Shown piece after piece: positions 4,769-56,473 of a stretch of DNA of 64,000 bases. Below the pieces are notes generated by a model. It was given only the letters and a program-made list of their open reading frames with translations. It was not told the origin of the DNA and searched no databases. The DNA is taken from contig JAUNDT010000001.1 in assembly GCA_030525945.1 (NCBI GenBank), positions 248,001-312,000 on the forward strand. Reading direction: 5' to 3'. Position 1 is the first letter of the stretch. Every line of letters starts with the position of its first letter. The translations under genes and the position numbers were made by a program. This stretch comes from Coriobacteriaceae bacterium (lineage in GTDB: Bacteria; Actinomycetota; Coriobacteriia; Coriobacteriales; Coriobacteriaceae).

Positions 4769-6713
4769 GGCTAAGCGCGCCGCAACCGGCGCCGGCCAGC
4801 AGCGCCCTGCAGGCGGCCGCGGCGGATACAAGGGCGGCAAGGGTACCTTCGGACGCGTGCTCAAGATGCTCTTCGGCTTTTACCCCAAGCTCCTGCCCGC
4901 CGTGCTCGTGTGCATGGTGCTCCAGGCCCTCGTGCAGTCCGCGCCCAACATCTTTATGGAGCGCGTCCTCACCGTGGTGGGCCAGACCTGGCAGATCGGC
5001 GACTGGGCGGCCGCGAGCGGCCCGGTTATCACCAACGCCGCCATCCTCGCCACGCTCTACGTGCTCGCCATTTGCTGCAACGCGTTCTCCACGCAGGCCA
5101 TGGCCATCATCACGCAGGGCTCGCTCAAGAAGTTCCGCGTCGAGATGTTCGACCGCATGCAGGACCTGCCCATCCGCTACTTCGACGCGCATCAGCACGG
5201 CGACGTGATGAGTTACTACACCAACGACATCGACGCCATGCGCATGATGATCGGCCAGAGCCTGCCCAACCTGCTGTTCACGGGCCTCATGATGCTGTCC
5301 GTCACCTGCATCATGCTCTACTACAGCGTGCCCATGACCTGCGTGGTAATCGGCGGCGCCGTGTGCATGGCGCTCGCCACGCGCTTTTTGGGCGGCCGCT
5401 CCGCCAAGAACTTCCTGCGCCAGCAGCGCGCCGTGGCAAAGCTCGAGGGCCACGTTGAGGAGATCATGGCGGGCGAGAAGGTCATCAAGGTCTTCTGCCA
5501 TGAGGACGAGGCCATCGAGGACTTCGACCGCATCAACGACGAGCTCGAGGCCGCCGCGCGCGCTGCCAACAGCTACGCCAACACGCTCATGCCGATCCTC
5601 ATGAACATGGGCAACCTGCTCTACGTGCTCGTCGCCGTTGCCGCAGGCCTGTTCATCAGCGCCGGCATCCCCAACCCGAGCATCTCGGGCCTGCCGCTCA
5701 CCATCGCCGTGGCGGTCCCGTTCCTGAACATGACCAAGCAGTTCGCCAACCAGATCGGCCAGATCTCCAACCAGATCAACTTCGTGGTCATGGGCATGGC
5801 GGGCGCCAAGCGCATCTTCGAGCTGCTCGACGAGGAGCCCGAGACCGACGAGGGCTACGTCACGCTGGTGAACGCCAAGCACGACCGCGAGACCGGCGAG
5901 CTCGTCGAGGCCGACCACCGCACCGGCACCTGGGCATGGAAGCACCCCCACTCCGACGGCACGGTCGAGTACGTTCCGCTCACGGGCGACGTGCGCATGA
6001 ACGAGGTCGACTTTGGCTACACGCCCGACCACGAGGTGCTGCACGGCGTGTCGGTCTATGCCGAGCCCGGCCAAAAGGTCGCGTTCGTGGGTGCCACCGG
6101 CGCCGGCAAGACCACCATCACCAACCTCATCAACCGCTTCTACGACATCGCCGACGGCAAAATCCGCTACGACGGCATCAACATCAACAAGATCAAGAAG
6201 AGCGCCCTGCGCCGTTCGCTTGGCATCGTTTTGCAGGACGTGAACCTGTTCACCGGCACCGTGATGGACAACATCCGTTACGGCAATCTCGAGGCCAGCG
6301 ACGCCGAGTGCATCGCCGCCGCCAAGCTCGCCGGCGCGGACAGCTTCATCAATACGCTGCCGAACGGTTACGACACCATGCTCACCGACAACGGCTCGCA
6401 GCTCTCCCAGGGTCAGCGCCAGCTGCTCTCCATCGCGCGCGCCGCGGTGGCCGACCCACCGGTGATGATCCTCGATGAGGCCACGAGCTCCATCGACACG
6501 CGCACCGAGGCAATTGTGCAGCGCGGCATGGACGCCCTCATGAACGGGCGCACCACGTTCGTGATTGCGCACCGCCTGTCCACCGTGCGCAACTCCGACG
6601 TGATCATCTGCCTGGACCACGGGCGCGTAATCGAGCGCGGCACGCACGACGAGCTCATCGCCCAGCACGGGTACTACTACCAGCTCTACACCGGAGCGTT
6701 CGAACTGGAGTAA
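4761..6713 (+). CDS. ABC exporter half-transporter, catalytic partner
   Basis: A 650-aa exporter subunit with transmembrane and nucleotide-binding domains. Walker A GATGAGKTT lies near residue 443, Walker B ILDEATS is canonical, and the switch His is present (IAHRLST). The signature reads LSQGQ instead of LSGGQ, which matches the partner's loss of the catalytic Glu: together they make one active and one degenerate ATP site. A Gly/Lys-rich cytoplasmic N-terminus and an insertion of about 50 residues before the ATPase domain are present. With its partner it probably pumps a drug or lipid-like compound across the membrane. Confidence 0.92.
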   Translation: MSKAKRAATGAGQQRPAGGRGGYKGGKGTFGRVLKMLFGFYPKLLPAVLVCMVLQALVQSAPNIFMERVLTVVGQTWQIGDWAAASGPVITNAAILATLYVLAICCNAFSTQAMAIITQGSLKKFRVEMFDRMQDLPIRYFDAHQHGDVMSYYTNDIDAMRMMIGQSLPNLLFTGLMMLSVTCIMLYYSVPMTCVVIGGAVCMALATRFLGGRSAKNFLRQQRAVAKLEGHVEEIMAGEKVIKVFCHEDEAIEDFDRINDELEAAARAANSYANTLMPILMNMGNLLYVLVAVAAGLFISAGIPNPSISGLPLTIAVAVPFLNMTKQFANQIGQISNQINFVVMGMAGAKRIFELLDEEPETDEGYVTLVNAKHDRETGELVEADHRTGTWAWKHPHSDGTVEYVPLTGDVRMNEVDFGYTPDHEVLHGVSVYAEPGQKVAFVGATGAGKTTITNLINRFYDIADGKIRYDGININKIKKSALRRSLGIVLQDVNLFTGTVMDNIRYGNLEASDAECIAAAKLAGADSFINTLPNGYDTMLTDNGSQLSQGQRQLLSIARAAVADPPVMILDEATSSIDTRTEAIVQRGMDALMNGRTTFVIAHRLSTVRNSDVIICLDHGRVIERGTHDELIAQHGYYYQLYTGAFELE

Positions 6714-16956: not shown

Positions 16957-16974
16957 GCGTCCTCCTAAAAACGC

Positions 16975-17002
16975 AAGCGGACCCAACGTGGGGCCCGCGC
17001 TT
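16975..17002 (-). promoter_or_regulatory. Terminator-like hairpin in the purD leader
   Basis: On the minus strand AAGCGCGGGCCC can pair with GGGTCCGCTT, followed by GCGTTTTT and directly by the AGGAGG ribosome site of purD. A weak promoter match (TTGAGA, 16 bp, TATATT at 17051-17024) lies upstream, which would place this hairpin in the leader as a possible attenuator. Otherwise it ends purA transcripts. Confidence 0.4.
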
Positions 17003-17040: not shown

Positions 17041-17140
17041 GAGCTTCTCAAGTGCCGCAGATTGGGCTGAAAGAGGAGGGCGCACGCCTAACGTGCGGCG
17101 CCCGACGATTGAAGCCCAAGGTGCGGTGCTTGGGAAGTTC
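17041..17140 (+). ncRNA. Structured element, copy 1 (candidate RNA or structured-DNA family)
   Basis: 100 nt fill nearly the whole gap after purA. Read on the plus strand: a 12-bp outer stem, a 9x9 internal loop, a 7-bp stem TTGGGCT/AGCCCAA, a 9x9 loop GAAAGAGGA by GACGATTGA, and a 26-nt hairpin. Copy 2 at 56375-56473 has the same layout and an identical second loop but different stem sequences. On this strand all outer-stem mismatches become G-U pairs, and the second loop can form tandem G-A pairs at both ends. Whether it is transcribed is unknown. Confidence 0.6.
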
Positions 17141-17141
17141 G

Positions 17142-18428
<1,287 letters not shown>

Positions 18429-54307: not shown

Positions 54308-56332
<2,025 letters not shown>

Positions 56333-56334
56333 TG

Positions 56335-56360
56335 TTCCGCCGTTTTGGCAAACGGCGGAA
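56335..56360 (+). terminator. Hairpin after gyrB
   Basis: TTCCGCCGTTT pairs with AAACGGCGGAA around TGGC, three bases after the gyrB stop. No T-run follows, so termination may be partial and gyrA may be read through. Confidence 0.5.
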
Positions 56361-56374
56361 TGACTCGACGCTGC

Positions 56375-56473
56375 GCGGGCGCCAGGCACCTCGCCTTGCC
56401 GTTCAATCGTCGGTCGCGTACGTGAGTACGCTTCCCTCCTCTTTCACGGCAATCCAATGCACCTGGCACCCGC
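56375..56473 (-). ncRNA. Structured element, copy 2 (candidate RNA or structured-DNA family)
   Basis: 99 nt with the same plan as 17041-17140. Read on the minus strand: outer stem GCGGGTGCCAGG/CCTGGCGCCCGC, a 9x9 loop, stem TTGCCGT/ACGGCAA, a loop GAAAGAGGA by GACGATTGA identical to copy 1, and a terminal hairpin with GCGTAC/GTACGC. Both stems differ completely from copy 1 yet keep their length and pairing. It lies 110 bp upstream of gyrA in the opposite orientation. Expression is unknown. Confidence 0.6.

Follow-up and report, generated by a model that had tools for sequence, protein, structure and literature searches.

The palindromic element behind purA and its sister copy behind gyrB

The gap between purA and purD contains a palindromic element of 100 nt, and a sister copy occupies the gap between gyrB and gyrA of the same window (the whole stretch of 64,000 nt analysed here). 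A preliminary description had placed two hairpins at these positions, and both were confirmed. The strand that folds into the long hairpin, named the G•A strand, is the plus strand in copy 1, thus antisense to purA and purD, and the minus strand in copy 2, antisense to gyrB and gyrA, with fold z-scores against shuffles of −9.5 and −7.0, respectively. The features are the following:

16967..17002, minus strand: separate terminator-like hairpin with a T-run, between copy 1 and purD (read from the sequence)
17041..17140, plus strand: copy 1 of the palindromic element (model positions 1–101; R1 match of 108 bits exactly here)
17053..17054, plus strand: UG side of the conserved tandem U•G/G•U (partner 17127–17128)
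17060..17061, plus strand: GA side of the outer 2x2 purine mismatch (partner GG at 17120–17121)
17062..17068, plus strand: 5' strand of the 7-bp stem (partner 17113–17119)
17069..17077, plus strand: 5' half of the core, GA-AA-GA-G-GA (invariant or compensated across copies)
17078..17103, plus strand: apical hairpin of type A (GGGCGCACGCC...), from the fold
17104..17112, plus strand: 3' half of the core, GA-C-GA-TT-GA (invariant or compensated across copies)
17142..17144, minus strand: purA stop codon (copy 1 starts 1 nt behind it)
56330..56332, plus strand: gyrB stop codon (copy 2 starts 42 nt behind it; read from the sequence)
56375..56473, minus strand: copy 2, in the gyrB–gyrA gap (R1 match of 100 bits)
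56403..56411, minus strand: 3' half of the core of copy 2 (GACGATTGA; pattern match)
56437..56445, minus strand: 5' half of the core of copy 2 (GAAAGAGGA; pattern match)

Within the window, the paired pattern GAAAGAGGA..GACGATTGA has exactly two occurrences, against an expectation of 0 and none in 100 shuffles. In addition, a small hairpin, TTCCGCCGTTTTGGCAAACGGCGGAA, lies at window positions 56333–56358, between the gyrB stop codon and copy 2, and is absent from the other gyrB–gyrA loci aligned.

Fold and compensatory change

The unit measures approximately 100–130 bp, and its G•A strand forms a long hairpin with stems of 19 and 7 bp plus the core. When G-U pairs are allowed, the outer stem of the purA copy becomes one 22-bp helix closed by the 2x2 purine mismatch GA/GG. 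The inner 9x9 segment, previously described as an open loop, is instead predicted to be a continuous helix made up of G•A, A•G, A-U, A-U, G•A, A•G, G-C, G•A, and A•G pairs, that is, three tandem G•A/A•G steps spaced by A-U/A-U and by G-C. Judging from the known geometry of tandem G•A pairs, those of the core are probably of the sheared type.

The alignment A3, fitted to the covariance model and composed of 103 distinct rows, presented standard pairs in 94.5% of the cells over 31 pairs, 28 of which had changed on both sides, a result reached in none of 500 shuffles; when the pairing was slid as a control, the paired fraction fell to 30–52%. The same picture emerged from the 12-copy set, aligned independently (20 pairs changed on both sides, 0/500 shuffles). 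The compensatory change proposed earlier from two copies is therefore borne out, with pairing-preserving substitutions found in copies from relatives. Regarding the core itself, which had been described as fixed, it is exact in both window copies, but its 18 positions are not universal, as its Watson–Crick pairs covary: in A3, the second A-U pair is replaced by C-G in 8 rows and by G-C in 4, and the G-C pair by C-G in 5 rows and by U-A in 3. Centre variants found at gyrB–gyrA in other species (GA-AGGAU-GA / GA-A-AUCCU-GA) keep the flanking tandem G•A steps around a fully paired middle. Outside the core, the purine mismatch appears as GA/GG in 63 copies and, turned by 180 degrees, as GG/GA in 17, and the tandem U•G/G•U is present in 70 of 98 copies, its place being taken elsewhere nearly always by one or two standard pairs. 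The G•A steps, the purine mismatch, and the U•G/G•U stand at fixed spacings, and the sequence of the arms is almost free as long as it pairs.

The two strands are not equivalent: whether RNA or DNA parameters are used, 103 of 106 copies fold more stably as the G•A strand, which all of the fixed wobbles and purine mismatches favour. The scattered pairing errors, however, are nearly strand-symmetric (weighted G-U 41 versus A-C 52), a symmetry easier to reconcile with DNA than with RNA. Of the selection on a folded RNA or single-stranded DNA suggested in the preliminary description, the folded single strand is supported, and it may be either RNA or DNA.

Copy number, turnover, and spread

Far from being limited to two copies, as first described, the element is present in 12 copies in the whole genome when searched with the exact-loop pattern, and the covariance model built from these 12 raised the number to at least 24. 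The same kind of search, anticipated in the preliminary description as a way to find more copies, detected the element in 33 of the 36 other genomes of the genus sampled, with up to 33 copies in relatives, some of them in tandem arrays.

Occupation of individual sites differs between species. Among the orthologous loci fetched, the purA–purD copy was present only in this genome, and the gyrB–gyrA site carries the element in some species, a variant with a different centre in others, and nothing in still others. At the pheS–pheT site, at least four variants or a short relic were found in species whose pheS genes are approximately 96% identical, and full copies alternate with relics at the def site. 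This is the behaviour of a repeat that arrives, changes, and decays, although no clean pre-insertion site was obtained, the "empty" def sites and some of the pheS ones resembling deletion relics.

Other genera of the same family also carry the element, and diverged forms appear in two genomes from another family of the order. Among the exact-loop matches listed for genomes of named species, nearly all belong to Collinsella, Enorma, or Coriobacteriia bins, and further matches listed come from another phylum, in Novosphingobium subterraneum, N. hassiacum, and Erythrobacter oryzae. In the Novosphingobium and Erythrobacter genomes, the loops sit in wholly different, long paired arms, and the same Novosphingobium genome has a second copy, with the core AA/UU replaced by UC/GA, again compensated. 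Related cores, GAGCGAGGAGCGA / GAGCGACGAGCGA and GAACGAGGAGCGA / GCGACGAGTGA, were found in two more alphaproteobacterial genomes, with three copies each, and an actinomycetote of another family (G494, L423–L426) contains five long palindromes with related GCGCGAGGAGGGAGC..GTGACCGACGA cores. The cores of Collinsella and of the Alphaproteobacteria may be either homologous or convergent. Most of the G494 palindromes have CTAG...CTAG ends, and two of the three related G•A hairpins of an AT-rich alphaproteobacterial genome (G174; L397 and L405) lie directly beside tRNA genes. Five R2 matches (L398, L399, L400, L430, and L431) fold unlike the element and were judged to be due to chance. Finally, a search of IMG/VR with the exact pattern returned 0 matches, and carriage by phages was thus rejected.

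Position and strand relative to genes

A co-oriented gene lies upstream of 100 of the 106 distinct copies, the G•A strand being antisense to it. By type of gap, 84 copies are in co-directional gaps with the G•A strand antisense, 4 in co-directional gaps with it sense, 8 in convergent gaps, and 0 in divergent ones, which represent about 24% of the intergenic sequence in the window; for the rest, the call of a neighbouring gene was missing. Single copies in co-directional gaps lie at a median of 3 nt from the upstream stop codon and 82 nt from the next gene, and many of the more distant ones are the second or third unit of a tandem array. Gene ends were taken from a simple codon-score method, with which the conserved pheS, gyrB, purA, and def agree. 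The host genes are functionally unrelated (pheS, pheT, gyrB, purA, purH, ileS, prfA, sufB, infB, lysS, folD, and ppc, among others).

In the copies nearest to a stop codon (the def locus, L218–L231, and L023, L030, L101, and L178), the stem passes through the stop into the last codon, so that the far arm carries the reverse complement of the gene end, e.g., GTCTAAGGGG..CCCCTTAGAC. Insertion directed to the site behind TAG/TAA by the sequence itself was considered and rejected, as stop-codon use in the host genes is like that in other genes. A rule based on the replication strand instead of the gene was also discarded against the copies of genome G014, where orientation mostly follows the gene: in this small test, of the six copies oriented against the replichore, four lie behind a head-on gene.

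Such a tight relation to genes is what a cis-acting mRNA element would show, and this is the main rival to the reading that we prefer, possible but in our view rather doubtful. According to it, the sense-strand hairpin behind the stop codon would protect the upstream message, direct its processing, or separate the expression of operon genes, copies being kept for this function. The rule of position and orientation, the sites within the operons pheS–pheT, gyrB–gyrA, and sufB–sufD, the G014 copies, and the fold of the sense strand, which still reaches a mean of −51 kcal/mol, all speak for it. In contrast, it is the opposite strand that gains stability from the conserved wobbles and purine mismatches, the sites turn over, with orthologous genes doing well without the element, and most sphingomonad copies behind stop codons have the G•A strand as the sense one, an orientation inverted with respect to Collinsella; the mRNA strand is thus not the common factor. 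No constant tie to one gene class, such as a cis-regulatory RNA (riboswitch or leader) would have, was found among the host genes, and in Collinsella the strand with the conserved fold runs antisense to them. For the G•A strand, a conventional mRNA element is disfavoured, given that this strand is untranscribed at 100 of 106 copies and the wobble errors are symmetric.

It is improbable that the G•A strand gives a non-coding RNA acting in trans or antisense. Its fold is the most stable and the best conserved, but nearly all copies have this strand antisense to the adjoining genes, a separate promoter would be required for each of 24 copies that differ in their arms, and at scattered positions G-U is not favoured over A-C. 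Equally slim are the chances that quasi-palindrome correction, in which one arm serves as the template for the other at replication, and not selection maintains the pairing of decaying repeats: the long near-perfect arms, the symmetric errors, and the stems that in some copies run into the stop codon of the host gene are consistent with such a process, yet it would also erase the mismatches (tandem G•A, GA/GG, and U•G/G•U), and these vary least of all parts. An ordinary Collinsella transcription terminator, to which the location of the hairpin directly behind stop codons could point, is highly improbable, as a T-run within 12 nt follows only 1 of the 106 copies, which led us to reject an intrinsic terminator, the element lies inside operons (pheS–pheT and gyrB–gyrA), purA has its own terminator-like hairpin downstream, and presence at a given site differs between species.

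Search for a mobiliser

A Y1-transposase gene was detected in 27 of the 27 genomes with at least eight copies of the element and in 5 of the 10 with fewer, counts not corrected for kinship. However, when 19 RAYT loci were searched with R1 for the element beside the gene, only a chance-level match appeared (E 0.78), so that no RAYT flanked by this same repeat was found among them; those with recognisable flanks carry other palindromes of their own. The sole Y1-transposase gene of this genome, RAYT-like and encoding 259 aa on contig C2 (L058), was rejected as an adjacent mobiliser for this reason, being flanked by its own 44-nt palindrome AATGCGTCATTTAGGGTC-A-GACCCTAAATGACGCATT at positions 5225–5268 and 6076–6119 of L058. 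Another copy of this palindrome abuts one copy of the element (L012/L029). Several Collinsella RAYT loci (L060, L071, and others) are flanked by GGGGACTGTCCC / GGGGTCAGACCCC palindromes, which resemble the GGGGWSAS terminal repeats (PMC3733652).

Direct repeats of at least 6 nt across the element were as frequent as in shuffled flanks (16.0% versus 15.7%), with no excess that would indicate a target-site duplication. Genes trapped between two nearby copies were also considered as candidate transposases and rejected, the three such genes being carA, a ROK kinase, and a dehydratase subunit.

Interpretation

We consider it the best explanation, with a probability of roughly 0.55, that the element belongs with the palindromic repeats of REPIN/MITE type, being dispersed, non-autonomous, and recognised by its shape. 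This reading is based on the number of copies, the covariation on two alignments, the differences in site occupation between species, and the tandem arrays, as well as on the avoidance of divergent gaps and the location just behind stop codons, as for REPs (PMC3733652). Unrelated host genes, the same core in different arms and several copies in Sphingomonadales and other Alphaproteobacteria, the symmetric G-U/A-C errors, and the distribution of the Y1-transposase gene point in the same direction. Against it stand the lack of a RAYT-adjacent copy, of a target duplication, and of a clean pre-insertion site, and the strict gene-relative strand rule is not explained by a simple transposition model.

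From these data we infer that the repeat is mobile, that it passes through a single-stranded DNA form, and that a mobiliser exists. A trans-acting enzyme or protein would recognise the hairpin shape on single-stranded DNA and spread the copies, which would survive where they are least harmful, flush behind stop codons; there, the complementary strand would be transcribed as an intercistronic or 3'-UTR hairpin, with any effect on the mRNA arising at this stage. More tentatively, the dispersed repeats of Coriobacteriia, of the Actinomycetota genome of another family, and of several Alphaproteobacteria could share a recognition module, namely the three-step tandem G•A/A•G stack set in variable, compensated arms; a nuclease, transposase, or RNA-binding protein that prefers gene ends would read its shape. 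The occurrence of this core in Sphingomonadales points to a single common partner, and this offers a concrete handle for finding it.

Comparison with known families

The element represents an abundant family of gut Collinsella, undescribed in the open-access literature searched, whose copies have an unusually clear structural signature, are anchored to stop codons, and follow a strand rule. The preliminary description had named Collinsella-1 (Rfam RF01700; PMC2864571), which comes from the same kind of organism, as a possible identity, but its covariance model gave no match in a full Rfam 15 scan of the window at gathering cut-offs and of three copies with E up to 5. More generally, the element matched no Rfam family. 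Thousands of structured-RNA candidates, one from Collinsella among them, have been reported from human microbiomes (PMC8040213); the element may be among these candidates, without a description.

An influence on mRNA stability and genome plasticity has been attributed to small palindromic repeats (PMC3733652). Like the MITEs that fold in mRNA (ERIC, YPAL, NEMIS, and bcr1; PMC3733652), palindromes of 70–300 bp located by genes and transcribed as hairpins, the element is palindromic and lies beside genes; it differs from them in that neither a target duplication was found nor a parent insertion sequence is known. A preference for gene 3' ends is known for REPs (PMC3733652), and the CGTC-tagged REPs and the Rickettsia RPE-4 and RPE-6 share with the element this location, a palindromic nature, and the lack of a known transposase, the CGTC REPs being an example of repeats without a known mobiliser (PMC3733652). 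These groups are mainly alphaproteobacterial, and Actinobacteria or Coriobacteria are unmentioned in that work (PMC3733652). CGTC stands at the foot of many Collinsella copies (CCCGTCTCCGTTG), possibly no more often than by chance, but the CGTC REPs measure 20–40 bp with stems of 8–9 bp, in contrast to about 100 bp with a G•A core in the element.

Finally, the REPINs associated with RAYT transposases (PMC3116915) are, as the element is, dispersed, extragenic, multi-copy hairpins of about 100 bp, and compensatory change in the arms and tandem arrays of units with their flanks have been reported for them (PMC3116915). No GTAG end was noted in the arms or the consensus of the element, and no adjoining RAYT gene was found; a structural difference lies in the constant part, which in REPINs corresponds to the terminal REP arms and in this element to the internal G•A core.
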